64,000 nt of DNA, taken from positions 37,764 through 101,763 of IMG/VR virus record IMGVR_UViG_3300037264_004923; one strand, given 5' to 3'. The position numbers and the translations under genes are program-made. Origin of the DNA: a virus. Under the pieces are notes generated by a model. That model did no database searches. It saw only the letters and a program-made list of their open reading frames with translations, and had not been told where the DNA came from. This document shows positions 3,389 to 49,089 of the stretch, piece after piece (the first letter of the stretch is position 1; each line of letters opens with the position of its first letter).

Positions 3389-3991
3389 TTAAAGTTGTAC
3401 CGTGCAGATACCATACCCAATAAGACTTCCACAGATCTCATCTGCGGCTGTCATTCCCAGATTCTGGAAAGCCAGATGTACGGGCCGGCAATCACCGTCT
3501 GGCGCGTATGTTCCTTGGTGGAACCAATCGTGAAACGCAATCAATCCTCCAGGTTTAACCAAAGGGAAGTACATTTCAATGTCCATCTGTACACCCCAAC
3601 GACGATGATCCCCATCGATAAACATAAAATCGAATGGTCCAAATTCTGCCACGCGGGCTTTGGTGGTTTCTAAGTGGCTATCGCAAATAAAAGTCCGCGC
3701 TCCATGATAAGAAGGATTTGTGTCGTAACCAAAGTACTCAACGAAGCCATCAAAGGGCTCAGACTCGTGCGGAATACCGGACTTTGCCCCAGAATAGTGT
3801 CCCAAAGTAAGGCTGGTAGTGGGCGCAAAGAAACCCCAGAAGAAGCTCGTAGCGCCTCCTCCGATCTCCAGAATATTCGTAGGCTGATGTTGGTTTAGTT
3901 TCTCGATCAGCCACCACAATTCTGCAGGATCCTGCGCGGGAGTAGCCTTGGCAAAAAGATCATCAAACTTTTCTTTGGTCATTATAGGCAT
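3389..3991 (-). CDS. Class I SAM-dependent methyltransferase
   Basis: 200 residues. ILEIGGGATSFFW is the SAM-binding motif I and FDFMFIDGDHRRWG the FxxDGDH signature of the Methyltransf_24 group, ending with a GGLIAFHDW strand. Members methylate sugars or small molecules. The ATG at 3991 shares bases with the TGA of the GIY-YIG gene (TGATG); a GTG at 3994 is an alternative. Similar proteins recur in the 11-20 kb glycan island, so it may act on the same product. Confidence 0.8.
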   Translation of the reverse strand: MPIMTKEKFDDLFAKATPAQDPAELWWLIEKLNQHQPTNILEIGGGATSFFWGFFAPTTSLTLGHYSGAKSGIPHESEPFDGFVEYFGYDTNPSYHGARTFICDSHLETTKARVAEFGPFDFMFIDGDHRRWGVQMDIEMYFPLVKPGGLIAFHDWFHQGTYAPDGDCRPVHLAFQNLGMTAADEICGSLIGYGICTVQL

Positions 3992-4746
3992 CACGCATCT
4001 CCTTTATTGGGATCGGTGTCTTCTTGCTTCCTAAATCGCTTGTGCCAACCTATTTTCTTCCTGCTTTCTACCATTTTGGCTCGGGTTTCTTTGGAAATTA
4101 TAGTTTTGGGTTTTAGTTTGGCGGCTTCTTTCATTTTGTTTCTTGTTGCAAGAGAATGTGTCTTACCGAAGAACGCATTATTATTACCTTTATGAGCTTC
4201 GGCAATCTTTTGCTTATGCTCTTCCGTGAGAACCATACCCAGATGGGATTGCCTCATCTTATTTCTGCTTTCCTCCGAAAACTTCTTACCAAAAAGAGGA
4301 TGATTCTCGCCTGACATACGAAGGCTCATGTTTTCTTTCCACTCTTTATTATGCTCTTTCCCAAAAGCTGGATTTTTTGCCCCTAACTTACATTCTCTCA
4401 TTTTTTCTATAGACTCAGGAGAATGTTTCCTGCCCGGCACAGGACCAGCATGCCCGCCAAGTTCCCTATTGTACCCATTAGGAGTTAAAGAATTCAAGGT
4501 TCTTATCCAGTACATTTCTTTATCATCAAGTTCTTCTTTCGAATAGGCAGTATCTAAAAGAACAAAATCGAAGTTAGTACGTCCATGTTTTATCATTGCC
4601 TTGTTTATAACCAAACCGCCTTTACTTTGTGAAGTTTGAGAAAAGTGGGCAGATTTTCTCTTGTATGGATCAATGGTTTGACCGACATACAGCTTACTAT
4701 TTATGGTGTTCTCTATTATGTAAATGTATCCAACAAAACTCTGCAT
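3991..4746 (-). CDS. GIY-YIG homing endonuclease with NUMOD3 repeats
   Basis: 251 residues. The N-terminus has GYIYIIENT...LYVGQT, the GIY-YIG catalytic core, followed by Arg and Glu residues of the fold (SKEELDDKEMYWI). From about 105 onward come repeated NUMOD3-like DNA-binding segments (GRKHSPESIEKM, GKKFSEESRNKM, TEEHKQKIAEAH). Such enzymes are free-standing homing endonucleases that spread within phage genomes. The gene overlaps both neighbours by 1 nt, so it sits inside the operon rather than inside an intron I can see. Its A/T-rich codon use differs from its neighbours. Confidence 0.9.
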   Translation of the reverse strand: MQSFVGYIYIIENTINSKLYVGQTIDPYKRKSAHFSQTSQSKGGLVINKAMIKHGRTNFDFVLLDTAYSKEELDDKEMYWIRTLNSLTPNGYNRELGGHAGPVPGRKHSPESIEKMRECKLGAKNPAFGKEHNKEWKENMSLRMSGENHPLFGKKFSEESRNKMRQSHLGMVLTEEHKQKIAEAHKGNNNAFFGKTHSLATRNKMKEAAKLKPKTIISKETRAKMVESRKKIGWHKRFRKQEDTDPNKGDA

Positions 4747-7934: not shown

Positions 7935-8864
7935 TTACTTCCAGTTTTTTTCGAGCCAATCTATGACCGGGGCGATGTCTGTGTTCTGCGCGATCACCAT
8001 AAGATCAAGGATGTTCTTCCAATCATCCAGAGGATAATCGTGAGCCAGCTGAGGATTTAGACGATAGTACTTATCCCGCAGGATTTGCTTACATTCGAAG
8101 TCTACTACATCCACAGAACCATCCATTAGAATGCCTAAAAGATGCTTTGCCCATTTAGCCAAACCCCAGTTCAGGTTGTCGCCCTCGATATGCTGTCTGA
8201 AACGCCCCGCACCCAAGGAAAGCAAGTTGATGTTCCTCAAATCTTTGTTTAGATTGCGTGGATTCAAGGCTTGCGCGAGTCCCACCATACCTGGATTATT
8301 TGCAAAGACTCCCCCATCAATGTAGCCGTCCGAGGTTGGAAAGTAAGTTGGAGCTGCTAAAGTTCGAAGTGCCAAATCTACAACCCGTACATCCAAATCG
8401 GCATCCGACCCGCGACAATTGTGGAAGATCTTTGCTTTCCAAGCCCGGGCAGAGCCCTCAGCTTCGTTATCCAGATCGAAGGTCGTGATAGCCACGCTCT
8501 TTTCGAGATCACCCAACAAGAGATCGCCAAACTGGATCTCTAACATTTTGCGCAGATTATCCGATTTGTAATCGGCACCCAAAAGCTTCCAAAAATCCTT
8601 GAATTTACCGAAAAAAGTCTCTGAAAAGATCTCCTTCGAGGCAGTTTGATACATCTCTCGTAAAGCAGCAGGGCTCTTTCCAGTTGCTAAGCCCAAGGCA
8701 ATAATGCCACCCGTAGAAGTCCCCACCAGAAGGTCTGCATCTCTGAGAATGTTGGGGTGTTTACTCTCAATCCGCTCCAAAAGACAGGCCTCAAGGATAC
8801 CACGTACCCCGCCCCCATCAAAGGAAAGAATGTTGAAAGGCTTCTTGGTAACTTGATTCCCCAT
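7935..8864 (-). CDS. Patatin-like phospholipase
   Basis: 309 residues. It has the glycine-rich oxyanion loop DGGGVRG (16-22), the nucleophile elbow GTSTGG (Ser50) and the dyad Asp in YIDGGVFANN (Asp183). These enzymes release fatty acids from membrane lipids. In bacteria the CapV branch is a CBASS effector; other branches are toxins or housekeeping enzymes. No secretion signal is visible, so it would act from the cytoplasm, perhaps in lysis or membrane remodelling. It overlaps the upstream winged-helix gene by 1 nt. Confidence 0.9.
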   Translation of the reverse strand: MGNQVTKKPFNILSFDGGGVRGILEACLLERIESKHPNILRDADLLVGTSTGGIIALGLATGKSPAALREMYQTASKEIFSETFFGKFKDFWKLLGADYKSDNLRKMLEIQFGDLLLGDLEKSVAITTFDLDNEAEGSARAWKAKIFHNCRGSDADLDVRVVDLALRTLAAPTYFPTSDGYIDGGVFANNPGMVGLAQALNPRNLNKDLRNINLLSLGAGRFRQHIEGDNLNWGLAKWAKHLLGILMDGSVDVVDFECKQILRDKYYRLNPQLAHDYPLDDWKNILDLMVIAQNTDIAPVIDWLEKNWK

Positions 8865-9124
8865 TATTCGAACACCCTATTCTGAGCGTCCAATTCTCTC
8901 GCCCAGTCCTCAGCAACATAAAGGGTGTGTCCTGGTTTATTGGTAGTTTGGGACACTCTAACAGGGCCTTCCACCACCATTCCGCGATCAATCAGTTCTT
9001 TGATGGCGGGACCAGAAATGTTATTCTGAAGCTTCAGTTTGTCCCGAACCTCCGTGCGAAGGATTCCAGGGTTTTCCTTGATTATAAAGAAGATCTGATC
9101 GCGAATAGAACTTGTGTAGTTCAT
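8864..9124 (-). CDS. Small winged-helix DNA-binding protein
   Basis: 86 residues from ATG 9124, which overlaps the TGA of the radical SAM gene (ATGA). SIRDQIFFIIKENPGILRTE and the following helix plus the wing KPGHTLYV match a MarR-like winged helix. It is coupled to the phospholipase downstream and could regulate it, which is an inference from position. Confidence 0.65.
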   Translation of the reverse strand: MNYTSSIRDQIFFIIKENPGILRTEVRDKLKLQNNISGPAIKELIDRGMVVEGPVRVSQTTNKPGHTLYVAEDWARELDAQNRVFE

Positions 9125-10605
9125 GTTTGCTCTCTCTTCAGAATGAAACTGGGAAGCCCCTGTCCCATTGAATGTTCGTATCGCAGCGCGGCTCTCGCAG
9201 AGTTGAAGGGAATACCAAGCTTCTCTCGGACATCCGCTTCCAACCAGTCTCGCATCTCTACTAACTTCTCGGCTGCCAAGTGGTCGGTGTAGACGAAGGA
9301 TTTGTATCCGCCGCCAGGAATACCCTTGTAGTAGCTGGCGGTAGCAGAATAATCTACTTCCCAAGCGTAGAGTTTATCCCCGGTCTTAGGTTGAGTGTAA
9401 ACATACAGACCTGGCTTATCTCCTGGACGTGCTTCATCATAATACGGAGAGCCGGGGTAAGGGGTAATGATGGTACAATCAAAATCCTCGGGACGAACCT
9501 GAAGGAGCCAGTTCCTAACCGCGATAACAGACTCCTCGCTCTCACCAGGATGTCCAATAGACATGAGAGCCTTTACTTTCAAGCCGGCTGCTTTTGCAGT
9601 CTCCACGCACCGCGTGTTGTCTTCGAGAGTAGCACGTTTATTGATGTTCGTTAACATTCGAGGGGTCGCAGTTTCATACCCACATAGAAGCCATCTAAAC
9701 CCGGAACGATACAGGGCCTTTGCTTGTTCTTCATTGAATAGTTCAGATTTTACGAAGCCACGCAATCGAAACTCTACACCTAATCTATCTTGTAAATCTG
9801 TTATCTTGTTCAGCATCGGAACGAGACCTGGATTTACATTCAACTCATCATCATAGAACATGAAACCCGTGTATCCGTAAGTAGTGTAGAGAGATTCCAA
9901 CTCTTGGATGATAGAATCTGTCGTTCTCGTACGGATCATGCGAAGGCTTTTGCTATTGCGGCCGCCACAAAAACCACAACCAAAAGGACATCCCAGCTGA
10001 GAAATCAAACTGGTCGCATTCTGCCCGTCAATAGAGTAATGGTAGGAGGGCATGTCGATAAGATGTCGGGCGGGATACGAACTGTCGTTGTACTGCTTAT
10101 CCGACAGGAAAAGACCGCCTTTCGGATCGTCGGCATCAATAACTTTCGGAGCATCAGCAGTGATGGCTTGGAAGATGGCAAGTTCTCCGTCTCCCGCAAC
10201 CAATACATCCGCCAGTACTTCTAACTTTTGGCGAGCACGGAACGCTCTTCCATCCATAGCCCCCCGCTTCTGCTCCAACTTATGTGCAGCAAGGGTAAGG
10301 GTAATGTGAGGCCCGCCCAGAATGATACGAATGTGAGGACAAATGTGTCGGATGGTCTTTACGATTTCCGATACAGCAGGAAACTGAGGAGTGGTAGTAG
10401 TAATACCTATCACATCGTCCGGAGCGGTGCGGAGATAATCCTTCAGAACTTCAAGATAGTTTTCCACCCCAGAGAAGTCCAAGAGATTTACCGAATACCC
10501 ATTGGCTTCTAGGGAACCAGCAACCTTAAGTATGCCCAGGCTTACAAAGACCCGCTCGTCCAAAAGGAAAGCAGAAGGCGGGGTAATGAGACATACAGAG
10601 GTCAT
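9121..10605 (-). CDS. B12-binding-domain radical SAM enzyme
   Basis: 494 residues. An N-terminal cobalamin-binding Rossmann domain (about 1-150, LGILKVAGSLEANGYSVNLLD, then IILGGPH) is followed by a radical SAM barrel with the 4Fe-4S motif CPFGCGFC (about 205-212) and the GYET and GHPGES stretches common in BchE-like proteins. This class often methylates unactivated carbons or rearranges rings. Next to glycosyltransferases and methyltransferases it may modify a sugar or lipid. The exact substrate cannot be told. Confidence 0.85.
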   Translation of the reverse strand: MTSVCLITPPSAFLLDERVFVSLGILKVAGSLEANGYSVNLLDFSGVENYLEVLKDYLRTAPDDVIGITTTTPQFPAVSEIVKTIRHICPHIRIILGGPHITLTLAAHKLEQKRGAMDGRAFRARQKLEVLADVLVAGDGELAIFQAITADAPKVIDADDPKGGLFLSDKQYNDSSYPARHLIDMPSYHYSIDGQNATSLISQLGCPFGCGFCGGRNSKSLRMIRTRTTDSIIQELESLYTTYGYTGFMFYDDELNVNPGLVPMLNKITDLQDRLGVEFRLRGFVKSELFNEEQAKALYRSGFRWLLCGYETATPRMLTNINKRATLEDNTRCVETAKAAGLKVKALMSIGHPGESEESVIAVRNWLLQVRPEDFDCTIITPYPGSPYYDEARPGDKPGLYVYTQPKTGDKLYAWEVDYSATASYYKGIPGGGYKSFVYTDHLAAEKLVEMRDWLEADVREKLGIPFNSARAALRYEHSMGQGLPSFILKREQT

Positions 10606-26344: not shown

Positions 26345-26385
26345 AATAAAAAGGTGCCCAGCTTCTGTTGCTGGCGGCTGGGCGC
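26345..26385 (-). terminator. Rho-independent terminator of the tmRNA gene
   Basis: GCCCAGC (26383-26377) pairs with GCTGGGC (26362-26356) around a 14-base loop, followed on the minus strand by ACCTTTTTATT. It lies about 30 bases past the tag stop codon. Confidence 0.85.
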
Positions 26386-26700
26386 GCCCCTTACTTTATG
26401 ATCGGGTTAGGATCTTAAGCAGTGAGTGTCTTAGCAGGCGCGAGGGTTTCTTTAATAGCAAGTTCACCCTTGTGCATTGCCGCGACATAGTCAGTTAGAG
26501 TCTGATTTAGACTTTGTAGCGCTTTTTTTTATCGCCTCGCTAACGATAGGTCGCGTAATCTCCCTCGCGTCGTCAGTCGATTCCAGTTCATCCCCAGGAT
26601 AAATAAACCTTGCTGGAGATGAGGGGATTCGAACCCCTGTGTTGTCCGACCTTAAGAGACACCGAATTACGACCATCTTTTTCCCACCCGAAGGTGGGAA
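26386..26700 (-). ncRNA. ssrA: Circularly permuted (two-piece) tmRNA
   Basis: Transcribed leftward, the 3' tRNA-like half comes first. A T-arm (AGGGG-TTCGAAT-CCCCT) is followed by CATCTCC and discriminator A73 at 26614. After an 18-nt spacer (26613-26596) the 5' half begins with GGGGATG at 26595. GGGGATG and CATCTCC form a 7-bp acceptor stem with G3-U70, the alanine identity pair. Then come CTGGAATCGAC (D-arm region), a P2 helix joining the halves (26549-26566 with 26654-26674) and pseudoknot PK1: helix 26544-26548/26530-26534 and helix 26538-26542/26517-26521, with an A8 linker. The tag frame ends at TAA 26415-26417, then the terminator. tmRNA frees stalled ribosomes and tags the product. 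CCA is not encoded. The acceptor-piece 5' end is approximate and includes a UUCG hairpin at 26681-26700. Confidence 0.9.
26415..26483 (-). other. Proposed tmRNA tag reading frame
   Basis: Read from a GCG codon at 26483, the frame gives AAMHKGELAIKETLAPAKTLTA and TAA. The frame stays open back to PK1, so the resume codon could be earlier. A second frame after PK1 ends in SKSDSN with TGA. The C-terminal TLTA differs from the usual LAA-type ending. The TAA lies at the base of a hairpin (GATC...GATC), like P5 of known tmRNAs. Confidence 0.5.
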
Positions 26701-26721
26701 AAGTTCAAAATGGTTTCATCC

Positions 26722-26978: not shown

Positions 26979-28751
26979 TTACGGAAGAAATGCCGTGCAG
27001 ACATGAGAGATGCCCGGGGCGAGGCTCGCGAGCGCGCGGCGCAGGCGGACGGAGTCTTCGAGATCACAGGCCGCGCTGCCGCCGACGTCACACTTTTCGG
27101 GCGCGGCAGGCGCGCTCTCCGAGCCGGCCAGGAACGAACGCAACGCGCTCACATCCGCGGCATCGATCCGGCCGTCGTCGCTCGTGTCGCCACACTGACA
27201 GAGATCGCCAATCCCGTCGGGTGACGCCGTCGCGAGCCCGCCCGAGTCGGTCTGCTCCGCGTTCGCCTCGACCGGGCAGTCGTCGAGCGCATCCTGGATG
27301 CCGTCGCCGTCGAAGTCGCCGCTCGCCGCCGCGACCGTCCCACCGAGATGCCCGCGAACCAGTATGCCGTTCGGGCTGGCGGTCGCGAAGAGCACGTCCG
27401 CGCCGGCGAGTCCGCCAACGCTGTTCGCGTGCAGGATCATCGGACCCGGGCAGCACTCCTGGCCGATTGCGCCGGCGGGACTGGTGGCGGCGATCGTCTG
27501 GGCTACACCGAAGCGCGACGCGAGCAGTGGGTGCGGCGATGCGAGGTTGCGCTTGTCGAACGCGAGCAGCGCGAGACCGCCGTCGTTGTACGACGTCGCG
27601 GCCAGAAAGTCGCCCGAAGCGCCGAAGCTCACCTGCGAGACGTAGGAGTACACGCCGCTCGCGCCCGGCGGCGGAGAAAGCACGATCGGGTTCAGGCCGC
27701 CGCGGATCACCCGCTTGCGCAGACAGGGGACACCCCCGGCGCTCGCGTAGCTACCGTCGTTGCAGGAGGGCCGTTGCAGGCGCGCATCGACCGCCGCTGC
27801 GGGCAGCGCGGCGATTCCGCGCACGTCGACCGCGACGAGCTGGCGCAGCGTCGCGGAGCCGGCGACCGCGACCGAGCTCGTCGGGTCGAGCGCGAGTCCG
27901 CGACCCGACGGATTGCCCGGTCCGAGCGGAATGGAGCCGACGAGCCGGCCGGTCGACACCTCGAGCACGTCGATGCTGCCCTGACCCGTGACCAGCGGCG
28001 GAAAACCGGCGTCGTAGATCCCCGCGTTGGTCACCGCGACGCGTCCGCCGGGAAGCGGGGTGAGGGCGACCGGGTTCGGATCCGAGGTGATCGCGAAGAA
28101 CGGGCTCGCCGGTGTCAGCGTCGTCGTCGCTCCGGAATCGTCGAGCGCGAAGAAAAGCACCGTGCCGGGATTCCAGATCGGATTCGATCCGGCCTGGTGG
28201 ATGTTCGAGGTCGCGACGACCAGACGATTCCCGACGCGCAGCGCGGAGCTGGTGAAGCTCGTCTTGAACGACGTGATCGCGGCGCCGGCGCCGGAATTCT
28301 GGTAGCGCGTGAACGCACCCGTGATCGTGTGCTTGGTCGGCACCGACGTGCGACTCTGACCCGAGTACAGAATCGTGTACCCGGCGCCACTCGCGTAGTT
28401 GAACGGCACGACGAGCTCGCAGTTCGACGTCGTGATCCATCCCCGAGTGACTCCGGTTCCGCGCTCGAGCGCCACGTTCCCGATCGTCGGCTCGTTGAAG
28501 GGCGCCGACTCGGTGCAGTTCACATTCCCCGGCAGCGAATACGACGCGCCGACATAGGCGAGCGCTTGCGTCGGCGCGATTCGCACCTCGAAGACGCCCG
28601 GGCCGTTACTCGATGCGGCGATGAAGGCGCGGTCGGGGTTGGTCGGGTGCGTCTCGAGCGCGGGCGGCGCAAACGTGTCGACGAGCAACGTGTCGGTTGC
28701 GGCCGAGCCGACGGAGAGGGTTGCAGCGAGCAGGGCGGCCGCCACGCTCAT
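26979..28751 (-). CDS. Secreted protein with thrombospondin-3-like and dockerin-like C-terminus (foreign segment)
   Basis: 590 residues from ATG 28751, with signal peptide MSVAAALLAATLSVGSA. The middle is beta-rich and propeller-like (repeated strands around LVAVDVRGIAALPAA). Residues near 500 carry DFDGDGIQDALDDCP, a calcium-binding TSP3-type repeat, and then GDTSDDGRIDAADVSALRSF, a dockerin-type EF-hand pair. This domain pairing is common in high-GC environmental bacteria (myxobacteria-like, Planctomycetes-like), not in phages. The ATG overlaps the stop of the preceding fragment (ATGA). Confidence 0.8.
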   Translation of the reverse strand: MSVAAALLAATLSVGSAATDTLLVDTFAPPALETHPTNPDRAFIAASSNGPGVFEVRIAPTQALAYVGASYSLPGNVNCTESAPFNEPTIGNVALERGTGVTRGWITTSNCELVVPFNYASGAGYTILYSGQSRTSVPTKHTITGAFTRYQNSGAGAAITSFKTSFTSSALRVGNRLVVATSNIHQAGSNPIWNPGTVLFFALDDSGATTTLTPASPFFAITSDPNPVALTPLPGGRVAVTNAGIYDAGFPPLVTGQGSIDVLEVSTGRLVGSIPLGPGNPSGRGLALDPTSSVAVAGSATLRQLVAVDVRGIAALPAAAVDARLQRPSCNDGSYASAGGVPCLRKRVIRGGLNPIVLSPPPGASGVYSYVSQVSFGASGDFLAATSYNDGGLALLAFDKRNLASPHPLLASRFGVAQTIAATSPAGAIGQECCPGPMILHANSVGGLAGADVLFATASPNGILVRGHLGGTVAAASGDFDGDGIQDALDDCPVEANAEQTDSGGLATASPDGIGDLCQCGDTSDDGRIDAADVSALRSFLAGSESAPAAPEKCDVGGSAACDLEDSVRLRRALASLAPGISHVCTAFLP

Positions 28752-28957
28752 GGCGTCCTCCCGCGCACGCGCAGCAGCCAGAGCGTCTGATTCGGCAGCG
28801 GCTGACCGAGCGAATCCGAGCGCTGCTCGTGAGTCAGGTTCGCGGCCTCGATCGATAGCGTCAGATCCGCGGGAAACAGCGCAAGCCCTGGCACGCGGCG
28901 CGGCCGGAGGATCACGCCCGCGTCGACCTGGAGCGCGGCGTCCGAGAGCGTCGCACG
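28748..28957 (-). pseudogene. 3' fragment of a bacterial gene (TonB-dependent receptor-like C-terminus)
   Basis: The last 69 or so residues of a protein: LTLSIEAANLTHEQRSDSLG, then QPLPNQTLWL and a terminal RGRTP. This matches the final strands of outer-membrane TonB-dependent receptors. It is cut by the right junction; the in-frame codons beyond it are phage sequence. Its stop overlaps the start of the secreted protein, which indicates a bacterial operon. Confidence 0.55.
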
Positions 28958-28969
28958 GCCAACCTCCAT
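28957..28969 (-). pseudogene. 5' end of the phage gene split by the foreign segment
   Basis: ATG at 28969-28967 follows GGGAG with a 6-base spacer and lies 16 bases after the upstream TGA at 28986. Only codons for MEVG and the first base(s) of an Arg codon remain before the GC-rich DNA. Its continuation is at 26859. Confidence 0.6.
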
Positions 28970-28985
28970 GTTTTTCTCCCATGTC

Positions 28986-35470: not shown

Positions 35471-36427
35471 TCAGTAGTCCGTGGTCATCGTGTAATGATG
35501 ATTCAACCACTCGTGTGTGAAAAGTCCCGCGGGCATCTCCGCGCCGCGCGTAGCTGCACTCCAGAGAAGGAAGTCAGTGTTCAGGGAATTTACACTTTCG
35601 TCCACCAAAGATTTCAAGTTTTTGGTAATCATGTCCGCCCCGATTATAGAAGCGGCGCGAAGTTCTAATTCTTTCTGACTACCAGACGCCAAGAACTCCT
35701 TGCGATGAAGACGAGTCATAAGCTGAGAACGGGGCTCGATAACACCCAGCGCAATCAAAGTCTGAGGCACTCTATAGTCCGAAAAGATCGTTAGATCTGA
35801 TAGGCTTTCATCGTCAATAGGGCATTCTGTCCAGTCCTGGAAGCGCCCATAAGTCATACCTACAAACAGCTGGGAACGCTTGAAGAAAGGATCCCTCCAA
35901 CTTGGAAGCATAACCGGAAGGTATTGCGAAACAAAGTAAGCATTCCGCTTGTACTTCTGAAATAGTTTAGCAAAGGTAAAGTCCTGGTTCTTGTTTAGGA
36001 ACGCTCCAATCTCTCGCAGCGCGTTGGTGCGCTGCCTCACCATGGAGATGGGGCGTTCAGCGCGAAACAACTCACACAGCAGGTAATTCTCATCGACCTG
36101 GGAAAGAAAATAAGGGTCCTTGATCTCTTCCCAATGCTCCGTCAGACGAGCGCATATCAAGGAACAACCAGAAAGATCTCCATCCTGAAACTTCTTACCA
36201 TCCTCATCAAAATAACAGTAGTTAACCGCATTCAAGAAGAGATTGAAAAGACATACATTTTCGAAGTCATCCACCTGTGGATGAAAACGAGGATCGAAAT
36301 CCCAACGAGGAATGGAGATGTCATACTCCTTCAAAGCTTCGGCTACTTCTCGGGCACGCCCGGGGTTTAGACGGACGTACTGCGGGTTTGCCAGGATAAT
36401 GTCAGATAAGGCTCTCACTCTTGACAT
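35471..36427 (-). CDS. Queuosine salvage protein (Qng1/DUF2419 family)
   Basis: About 318 residues from ATG 36427 (ATG 36433 possible). CLFNLFLNAVNYCYFDEDG, TIFSDYRVPQTLIALGV and KELELRAASIIGADMITKNL, with a C-terminal FLLW and a closing HHYTMTTDY, follow the DUF2419 pattern. Known members are nucleosidases that release queuine from queuosine 5'-phosphate, letting cells reuse the base for tRNA modification. In a phage it could supply queuine for tRNA, or process 7-deazaguanine nucleotides; no other deazaguanine gene is in the window. Confidence 0.8.
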   Translation of the reverse strand: MSRVRALSDIILANPQYVRLNPGRAREVAEALKEYDISIPRWDFDPRFHPQVDDFENVCLFNLFLNAVNYCYFDEDGKKFQDGDLSGCSLICARLTEHWEEIKDPYFLSQVDENYLLCELFRAERPISMVRQRTNALREIGAFLNKNQDFTFAKLFQKYKRNAYFVSQYLPVMLPSWRDPFFKRSQLFVGMTYGRFQDWTECPIDDESLSDLTIFSDYRVPQTLIALGVIEPRSQLMTRLHRKEFLASGSQKELELRAASIIGADMITKNLKSLVDESVNSLNTDFLLWSAATRGAEMPAGLFTHEWLNHHYTMTTDY

Positions 36428-37019
36428 ACTCATAAACTCCCCGAAAAGTTTTGCGATGAATGTCAGAAGGACCATAAACCATGATCGCTTCTCTATGTTC
36501 TTCTGTGCCATAACCTTTGTGTCTCGCGAACCCATACATGGGCAAGATGTCGTCCAAGCTGACCATGTACTGATCTCTATGAACCTTCGCAACAATGGAG
36601 GCGGCAGCAATACATTTGTGGATGTTATCCCCGCCCACGACAGCTTGTTGCTTTACCCCTGGCAAATCCAGGTTGGGAATAGTTTGATTTCCATCTACCA
36701 GCACCAAAATCTCCTGCCCATCTACCATAAATTCCAAGCATAAACGACGGGCAGCTTCCCGCATGCACATCAGAGTTGCCTGAAAGATGTTCATCTCATC
36801 AATCTGATACGGATCCGCGCTTGCTAAAGTCCAAAAGCAGTTCTCACGAATAAGAGCGGATAGCTGTTCTCGCTTCTTGGCAGAGAGCTTCTTGCTATCC
36901 CGGATCTCAGCAACCCAAGGATAGTCTACGTCAGGAAGCATCACAGCGGCAACAACAACCGGTCCCGCTAAAGAACCTCTTCCGACTTCATCAACTCCGA
37001 TTGTAATCCGGTGCTTCAA
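36402..37019 (-). CDS. rnhB: Ribonuclease HII
   Basis: 205 residues. ITIGVDEVGRGSLAGPV holds the catalytic Asp-Glu, RDSKKLSAKKRE the next helix, LVDGN the third Asp, and KGYGTEEHREAI the C-terminal signature. It cuts RNA in RNA-DNA hybrids, so it would remove primers or single ribonucleotides from phage DNA. Confidence 0.95.
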   Translation of the reverse strand: MKHRITIGVDEVGRGSLAGPVVVAAVMLPDVDYPWVAEIRDSKKLSAKKREQLSALIRENCFWTLASADPYQIDEMNIFQATLMCMREAARRLCLEFMVDGQEILVLVDGNQTIPNLDLPGVKQQAVVGGDNIHKCIAAASIVAKVHRDQYMVSLDDILPMYGFARHKGYGTEEHREAIMVYGPSDIHRKTFRGVYEYVKSESLI

Positions 37020-46911: not shown

Positions 46912-49089
46912 TTAAGATCTGCTCTTATCGAGCTCTGACAAGCGGGCAACAACCATCTTACCTATACGATCCCAAGTAAAGTTCTCTGATATGTAATCTC
47001 GCGCCTTGGCACCCTTCGCACGGGACTCATCTCTGTTATTGTAGACGTGGCGCATTATGTTTATGGCGTTCTCCAAATCTGGTTCGCACCAATACTGGTC
47101 GCCTCGGTAGTACGGGGAAAATTTATTCATCCCGCATACGGGCGTCAAAGTGTAATTCGTCAAATAGCTATTATCTGGCTTCAAAAATTCCGTCTGTCCT
47201 CCATATCCTGGAGTGATGACGGGCTTGCCACAGGCTGCCGCTTCAAAGTGTGGAAGTCCCCAACCCTCGGATCGCTGTAGAAGTATAAAACAATCTGAGC
47301 GTTTGTGAAGAGCAAGAATGTTCTCCCGGCTCATATTCTCTACAACCAGAAACATTTTCGGAAAGTGTGGCAAGTTGATGAAGTTCTTGTATTCCATAAT
47401 CAGCTTACGAATCTGTTCTTTATCGCCACTATGATCGAAGAGGTAGGTCTTCAATACCAAAATTACATCCTCTACCCCACTGAAAGCAGCGCAGTAAGCG
47501 GAGAGAAGAGCGTAAGGATTCTTTCGCTCCTGCCATTGGAAAATGGAAGTGAAGACGAAAGGATTTCCGTCCAGCCCATTAAGATCGAAGGTAGGAAGAG
47601 AACCCATGTTCGGAACCTCTATGGCGTGAGGAACTTTGTGTAGAGGTACCGTAACGCCAGACTCTTTGAATACCTTCATGTTCCAGTCGCAGGGCAACCA
47701 AACCTCATTCGCTTTATTACAGGCTGTTACCCAAGTAGGATGAATCTTGCTAGACTCCCACACAGTATATCCGATGATGTACTTGTTCTTTTCGAAGCGC
47801 GTAAAGTTTTCCCAGAGGTCTGGGGTGGAGTGGACGATTACCTTATCGTAATCTATTCGGGCATTGATTAGCTCCCGAAGGGTATCTCCGTCCTTTCCCA
47901 GATCAGGGCGAGTACGCTCAAAGCTAATAGGCGCTAAGGTAACCGGATAGCCCTGACGATGGATAGACAGAACATAATTCCTGGCTGCCTCGGCATAGCC
48001 AGAGTTTCCGCACCACACCGCTTTGCCGTTCCTTCGAACAAAGAGAGTGTGATTAGGAACTGACGCGCAATACACCTTGCCCTTATATGTGATGCTCGTA
48101 TTTTTGGTAGCATCTCCGTTTCCCCAATTGGCGCCGTCTATAGCACAGAGTTGTTGTTTCCAGCGGACAGAAATGTTCCAGTTATCTTCTCTACAAACAC
48201 AATCTCTACCATAAATTTGTATCTTGTCTCCTTTTTCCTGAACCTTGGTATAAGAACCACTCAGCCCAGTTTTCAAAAGAAGCTCCATAAAATCATCTCG
48301 TAATCTAATGGAAGCAGTAGTGTAAGAAGAGCCTCCGTCTTTAGGCGCATGTCCATCTCCTAACATTAGAGCACTAAATAGTACCAGGAGTTGATTGCTG
48401 GAACACTGGTTCAGTATTTCACGAGGAATATACTTGTGATACTTATCTCCAAATGTAGATTTCAAATAAATAGCCAAGTTTTTGTCATTTACTATAGCAC
48501 GTTCTTCCTTCCTTACATTCACCTTATTGGTGGTTATTCTCTGTAAGGCGGCCGCCATTTTATCAAGGTGAATACCCGTCTGCCTTATTTGAACAATGTA
48601 GTGCTTGTTAGGAGTTACGGTAGAGGAACCTTCAGAAAGATAATAGCCCAAAAACTCCAACCACTCTTCTGTTTTTATTTGGCGACCACAAATTTCCACG
48701 AAAGGTAAATCAGGAACGGCGTTAAGGCAATCTTTTTTGAATAGTCTATACTTGCCTAAAACTTGCGCAGCCTTTTCAAAACGGAACCCAGAGCATTTTC
48801 GATTGTTTCTTCTAAAGATTTCAGGTGCAACGTACATGTTATGGTCAGGCGTAACCAAAAGATCTATACCGGCCCTGTGGTTATAGAAATGGCACATTTC
48901 CCCTTCCCAATCTTTGGCTATAAGTTGCTCAGGTTTATGATACTCCAAGTAACCAGAAGGATTCAAAGTGGCAAGGGGGTCTCCGAAGGATAGTTCTGAA
49001 AAGAATTTCCAACCGTCGGCAGTCAAGACTTCAGTCTCACTATCGTAACATCCATCAAAAACGGGACCGATATACTTTACGCCTGCCAT
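46912..49089 (-). CDS. GT-B glycosyltransferase interrupted by an intein
   Basis: 725 residues as translated. The N-extein is only 13 residues (ends GPVFDG), then the intein, then SGYAEAARNYVLSI and the rest of a GT4-type enzyme with DCFILLQRSEGWGLPHFEAAACGKPV, the classic GT4 donor-binding region. Removing the intein gives a 376-residue protein whose start, YIGPVFDGSGYAEAARNY, reads like an ordinary GT4 opening loop. Splicing is needed for activity. Paired with the GT4 gene at 49089. Confidence 0.9.
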   Translation of the reverse strand: MAGVKYIGPVFDGCYDSETEVLTADGWKFFSELSFGDPLATLNPSGYLEYHKPEQLIAKDWEGEMCHFYNHRAGIDLLVTPDHNMYVAPEIFRRNNRKCSGFRFEKAAQVLGKYRLFKKDCLNAVPDLPFVEICGRQIKTEEWLEFLGYYLSEGSSTVTPNKHYIVQIRQTGIHLDKMAAALQRITTNKVNVRKEERAIVNDKNLAIYLKSTFGDKYHKYIPREILNQCSSNQLLVLFSALMLGDGHAPKDGGSSYTTASIRLRDDFMELLLKTGLSGSYTKVQEKGDKIQIYGRDCVCREDNWNISVRWKQQLCAIDGANWGNGDATKNTSITYKGKVYCASVPNHTLFVRRNGKAVWCGNSGYAEAARNYVLSIHRQGYPVTLAPISFERTRPDLGKDGDTLRELINARIDYDKVIVHSTPDLWENFTRFEKNKYIIGYTVWESSKIHPTWVTACNKANEVWLPCDWNMKVFKESGVTVPLHKVPHAIEVPNMGSLPTFDLNGLDGNPFVFTSIFQWQERKNPYALLSAYCAAFSGVEDVILVLKTYLFDHSGDKEQIRKLIMEYKNFINLPHFPKMFLVVENMSRENILALHKRSDCFILLQRSEGWGLPHFEAAACGKPVITPGYGGQTEFLKPDNSYLTNYTLTPVCGMNKFSPYYRGDQYWCEPDLENAINIMRHVYNNRDESRAKGAKARDYISENFTWDRIGKMVVARLSELDKSRS
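48004..49050 (-). mobile_element. Intein with LAGLIDADG endonuclease domain (349 aa)
   Basis: Starts at Cys14 (CYDSETEVLTADGWKFF, block A). Block B is LLVTPDHNMYV with TxxH. The endonuclease helices are LEFLGYYLSEGS and LLVLFSALMLGDGHA. The C-terminal blocks are VYCASVPNHTLFV and KAVWCGN, followed by Ser as the +1 residue. The usual penultimate His is Gly here. The intein sits at the nucleotide-binding loop of the host enzyme, typical of its preference for conserved sites. Confidence 0.9.

Follow-up and report, generated by a model that had tools for sequence, protein, structure and literature searches.

Why should a phage carry its own tmRNA, an RNA that frees stuck ribosomes and marks half-made proteins for destruction, and what would destroy the proteins so marked? 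The locus considered here lies in a window of 64,000 nucleotides, the whole stretch of DNA analysed, which belongs to a virus record of 101,763 bases, itself a fragment. The initial annotation had read a circularly permuted two-piece tmRNA gene in the window, and a covariance-model match together with compensatory changes in related phages supports this reading. It had left undecided whether a permuted tmRNA had already been described in a phage. One has: methylophage Melnitz encodes a two-piece tmRNA, and the survey that reports it counts 53 two-piece forms among 133 unique phage tmRNA structures (PMC9004378, 2022). Permuted tmRNA in a phage is already known, and the Clp setting is the less expected part. 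The novelty of the window tmRNA lies in a divergent core, a long conserved tag and this Clp setting. We consider it highly probable that this phage-encoded, circularly permuted RNA performs trans-translation with a long lineage-specific degron, which a phage Clp system may read besides host proteases.

The features of the locus are listed in Table 1. Read leftward, the tRNA-like 3′ half precedes the 5′ half, and the 18 nt gap between them (26613–26596) is exactly as first annotated. The other parts named there, a 7 bp acceptor stem with G3–U70, the T-arm, P2 and an H-type PK1 with an A-rich linker, are all present in the sequence: GGGGATG occupies 26595–26589 with A73 at 26614, the T-arm is AGGGG-TTCGAAT-CCCCT, and the minus-strand positions of P2 are 26674–26670 for GGTCG and 26553–26549 for CGACC. 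The CATCTCC-A end stands as far as CATCTCC and A73; the next bases are GCA, so that the 3′ end is A-GCA rather than A-CCA and CCA is not encoded in the gene. Because of this ending, a gene for tRNA nucleotidyltransferase (the CCA-adding enzyme) in the phage record, just outside the window, is noteworthy. The hairpin and TTTTT of the suggested terminator are likewise present, a site of a kind so often expected by chance that it is weak evidence alone. The UUCG-loop hairpin was not seen at the corresponding place in relatives. Region L121 (G000:1–20000) carries ten tRNA genes, together with a nicotinamide phosphoribosyltransferase and a 1061-residue protein that weakly matches RNA polymerase beta.

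Table 1. Positions of the tmRNA elements and Clp genes in the window
Feature	Position	Strand	Composition	Basis or remark
Permuted tmRNA (ssrA) gene	26348..26674	−	tRNA-like 3′ half first, coding half second	RF04321 match and syntenic relatives
Acceptor piece	26614..26674	−	P2 5′ strand GGTCG, T-arm, acceptor 3′ strand CATCTCC, A73	
Intervening segment, 18 nt	26596..26613	−		Presumably removed in processing, by analogy with known two-piece tmRNAs
Coding piece, 5′ part	26549..26595	−	Acceptor 5′ strand GGGGATG, D-loop-like AACTGGAATCGAC, P2 3′ strand CGACC	
PK1, H-type pseudoknot	26517..26548	−	TATCG/CGATA and TAGCG/CGCTA, A-rich linker	
Tag reading frame	26415..26504	−	QTLTDYVAAMHKGELAIKETLAPAKTLTA-stop	Amino-acid homology to relatives' tags; exact resume codon predicted
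Hairpin then TTTTT, possible terminator	26348..26383	−		1 site found, 1.0 expected by chance
Perfect UUCG-loop hairpin, possible precursor element	26679..26702	−		Just upstream of tRNA-like half
Clp-type AAA+ unfoldase, 651 aa	19593..21548	−	AAA_2 and ClpB_D2-small at 372–626	
ClpP peptidase, 202 aa	37821..38429	−	GQAASMG, MMHQ and ERD active-site motifs	

A cmscan search, with the E-value computed for 64 kb and 4227 families, matched positions 26475–26674 to RF04321 (tmRNA_permuted) at 56.3 bits, above the cut-off of 47 (E = 2.8e-8), and the window tmRNA is a member of this family. RF04321 is a merger of RF01849, RF01850 and RF01851. The best-fitting of the older clade models is beta_tmRNA (RF01850), in which the window tmRNA is not filed because its 53.1 bits lie under the cut-off of 84. 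Of the checks proposed with the initial annotation, the search with permuted models was thus borne out by the merged family while beta_tmRNA stayed below its own threshold, and folding gave a single-strand local fold better than that of shuffled sequence (z = −3.4). In common with the bacterial RNAs of RF04321 are the permuted order, tRNA-like domain, P2, PK1 and tag frame. The window RNA differs from them in the A-GCA end, in a resume codon that is not for alanine and in a tag of 29 residues, the commonest length in the tmRNA database being 10 (PMC11915505); it also scores under every clade-specific cut-off. Other than RF04321, the 64 kb window has no Rfam match by cmscan and so no riboswitch match. 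Melnitz and other marine phages likewise encode a circularly permuted ssrA (PMC9004378). The Melnitz gene resembles those of alphaproteobacteria and lies near a transcription coactivator, with a glutamine riboswitch linked to it, whereas the window gene is closest to beta_tmRNA among the older models, if below its cut-off, and has a Clp unfoldase and ClpP nearby. ARAGORN, a standard tool, missed the window gene, so that phage tmRNAs may be undercounted; it did detect the corresponding genes of relatives, as permuted 'tmRNA*'. A BLASTN search of 50,697 phage records with the tmRNA as query gave no match.

Since the two genes flanking the tmRNA have no relatives in IMG/VR, related phages were located there through the DNA polymerase and ribonucleotide reductase (RNR). 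This yielded G001 (a 295,848 bp record) and the fragments G002–G005 and G011. A permuted tmRNA is found in G001, G003 and G004 (83.5, 98.5 and 98.5 bits) at the same position as in the window; the G003 and G004 genes are identical, so that with the window copy there are three distinct sequences. Genes on both sides are syntenic among the relatives while the small genes immediately around the tmRNA turn over, which indicates that the tmRNA was retained in place as its neighbours changed. The 667-residue ORF upstream of it (26979–28982, minus strand), which contains a TSP_3 repeat and weakly matches a dockerin-like domain, has no relative in IMG/VR by pattern search.

The three distinct sequences share a 32 nt plan for PK1 in which all 30 cells pair: 10 of 10 pairs are kept and six of the 10 are compensatory, a result reached by none of 500 shuffles, and sliding the PK1 partners destroys the pairing signal. 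Two compensatory positions each were found in P2, the acceptor stem and the T stem, and G3–U70 is invariant in all. The conserved pairings that had been suggested as a check in related phage genomes are therefore present in PK1, P2, the acceptor and the T stems, in a sample that is small, with only three distinct sequences, though the changes are clean. These data bear on the idea that the locus is a chance resemblance or contaminating bacterial DNA. Host-like genes, which might suggest the latter, are common in large phages; the covariation and the synteny refute the idea, as do the E-value given above, the syntenic homologues in independent viral contigs and the phage replication genes that surround the tmRNA, and we regard it as scarcely credible. 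A search for the host, with the DNA polymerase against bacterial genomes, gave only distant matches (28–35%) in metagenome-assembled bins, none of which serves as a host assignment.

Several further genes were noted in the window and its relatives. A glycosyltransferase (phrog_2170; 46912–49089, minus strand) is interrupted by a probable intein that starts CYDSETEVLTADGW, ends ...VWCGN ahead of a Ser and contains a LAGLIDADG_3 match; such an insertion seems unusual for a phage glycosyltransferase. In G001 the gene for the RNR large subunit (L141, 10001–13615) covers about 1.1 kb more than in relatives, suggesting an insert such as an intein. Also on the minus strand of the window are a homing endonuclease matching GIY-YIG families (3991–4746), a patatin-like phospholipase (7935–8864), a radical SAM protein with a B12-binding domain (9121–10605) and a queuosine salvage protein (35471–36610; PF10343, 135 bits) that is conserved in G001.

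The tag of the window, QTLTDYVAAMHKGELAIKETLAPAKTLTA, has 29 codons followed by TAA, and those of relatives have 28–31 residues; for the permuted tmRNAs of G001, G003 and G004 ARAGORN gives DNSSLMSYAKALHVRELSEKETLVEAEAIAA and GNSLVEYATRLHAKELVSKDVEQVAIAA. When the C-terminal 28 codons of the window and G001 tags are aligned, 12 of 28 residues are identical, with eight synonymous codon changes, and none of 20,000 shuffles is as good. The G001 and G003 tags have 13 of 26 residues in common, and the remaining frames of the window tag are interrupted by stops. Judged by these comparisons, the tag is conserved as a protein in the phage lineage. The resume codon is most likely CAG at 26504–26502, which follows TAAAT and lies 12 nt beyond PK1, because relatives resume 11–12 nt after PK1 following AAU or AUU. 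For the same reason we dropped a 35-codon tag starting from GCG inside PK1, resumption within the pseudoknot being unexpected. We also dropped the notion that the long tag is unique, since other viral permuted tmRNAs carry tags of 27–33 residues by a crude tag caller; it is unusual, not unique. The C-terminus is LTA in the window and IAA in relatives. By the same crude caller many tags of cyanobacterial-type phages end in ATA, VTA or ATV, not LAA (L024, L025, L096, L104 and others), and phage tags may drift systematically from the host degron.

These details raise the prospect that the window gene is a decaying copy, descended from functional phage ancestors and now losing its function, with a broken tag. 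Its score is the lowest in the lineage (56 against 83–98 bits), ARAGORN misses it, the tag ends in LTA, the predicted CAG resume codon is unusual, and a ribosome resuming in a different frame directly behind PK1 would make only the short TKSKSDSN-stop. Set against this, all helices are intact, including a pseudoknot with compensatory differences, and the 28 aligned tag codons are open and similar to those of relatives. Such decay appears improbable to us, though the lower score, the lack of an encoded CCA and LTA in place of IAA mean that the copy could be partly decayed or its tag a poor degron. Still less probable is a regulator or decoy, an RNA that ties up host SmpB, alanyl-tRNA synthetase or stalled ribosomes and so dampens host rescue. 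PMC11915505 cites a report that a phage tmRNA without a tag (DS6A) inhibits the tmRNA of the host in E. coli; the window tag frame, in contrast, is retained and conserved as a protein.

The reading that we prefer, trans-translation with a long degron, would proceed as follows. Enzymes of tRNA processing would cut the precursor at the 18 nt spacer and at both ends, and CCA would be added after A73, for which the phage encodes a tRNA nucleotidyltransferase. Alanine would be loaded by way of the G3–U70 identity element, and host SmpB would bring the tmRNA to ribosomes stalled on broken mRNAs. Translation would then resume on the phage tag frame, giving tagged peptides that end ...KETLAPAKTLTA, and the tag would act as a long lineage-specific degron. 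We infer the steps of processing, charging and ribosome rescue, the last of which is the likely function. A search that detected its positive controls revealed no SmpB in the phage record, a fragment, or in relatives. Of the earlier suggestion that the RNA replaces or supplements host trans-translation, both parts are plausible, and this result points to supplementing rather than full replacement. Huge phages carry tmRNA together with SmpB (PMC7162821). Like the phage of the window, they are large and have translation genes that include tmRNA and a CCA-adding enzyme; they differ in the SmpB, and the main text of that study is without Clp or proteases.

Besides host proteases, the likeliest reader of the tag would be the phage Clp unfoldase with ClpP, whose genes flank the tmRNA. 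The unfoldase is nearest to the D2 modules of ClpB, ClpC and ClpA, its N-terminal region of about 325 residues has no Pfam match, and it is 64–67% identical to the copies in relatives. An [LV]GFGD loop (LGFGD or VGFGD) is conserved in three sequences; it aligns with the [V/L]GF loop of ClpC and, by its sequence, would qualify as a docking loop of the form [LIV]-G-[FL] in the D2 module. An AlphaFold model of the unfoldase from three sequences has a pLDDT of 40.8, too poor for use. ClpP is complete (PF00574, 247 bits, positions 3–180 of 182) with its Ser-His-Asp motifs present, and the solved chains closest to it are ClpP. The window, G001, G003 and G004 all carry the genes for unfoldase, tmRNA and ClpP in that order and on the same strand.

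In the host, ssrA-tagged proteins are normally substrates for degradation by ClpXP and ClpAP. A functional tmRNA might accordingly pass its products to host proteases only, with the phage Clp serving to degrade host or defence proteins or in virion assembly. This is a serious possibility, if one that we hold to be short of probable. The normal role of the host enzymes is in its favour, as are the lack of adjacency between the Clp genes and the tmRNA and the IAA ends of relatives' tags, which are near the LAA read by host Clp; opposed to it are the gene order, conserved across three distinct lineage members, and the repeated pairing of tmRNA and ClpP in other phages. Coincidence may account for the Clp link, because the Clp genes lie about 5–11 kb from the tmRNA, do not form a single operon and are of a kind that large phages carry in numbers.

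The permuted tmRNA pattern matches at least 119 viral contigs. A ClpP match occurs in 13 of the 48 permuted-tmRNA viral records searched, five of them full length (>250 bits), as plain counts over contigs that are fragments and in several cases close kin. In a lineage comprising G022 and G030 (the longer 221 kb), a permuted tmRNA occurs with ClpP and with a Clp unfoldase of two modules that carries NTIGFGDE; the unfoldase is about 38–40% identical to that of the window in the shared module, and the ClpPs are 47% identical. In G027 (L164, 5960–9834, plus strand) clpP, an ORF of about 129 residues, a permuted tmRNA with a 30-residue tag, groES and groEL are consecutive, the last two having been identified by eye from their sequences. 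A small ORF like that of G027 also precedes the tmRNA in G022. This recurrence of permuted tmRNA with ClpP or a Clp unfoldase supports, short of proof, a functional link. That the phage Clp recognises the phage tag is a proposal we make tentatively. We are more hesitant still about a nearly complete phage tag-and-destroy pathway, consisting of tmRNA, a degron of about 29 residues, an unfoldase with a new N-terminal region and ClpP, lacking only SmpB and assembled in at least two lineages.

For the Sinorhizobium jumbo phage AP-J-162 one tmRNA is listed alongside six ORFs related to Clp, clpX among them (PMC11242549); the passages of that paper dealing with them discuss Clp with regard to DNA replication and mention neither a syntenic tmRNA–Clp set nor conservation of a tag. 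In the literature searched, which included few subscription journals and preprints, we found no description of a phage tag and a phage Clp as one pathway. A lineage with tmRNA, a conserved long tag, an unfoldase with a loop of the ClpP-docking type and ClpP offers a concrete, testable answer to the question of why phages carry tmRNA. If the proposal is true, a phage tag-and-destroy pathway redirects trans-translation away from host control, and phages may control what becomes of proteins from stalled ribosomes by providing the protease as well as the tag.
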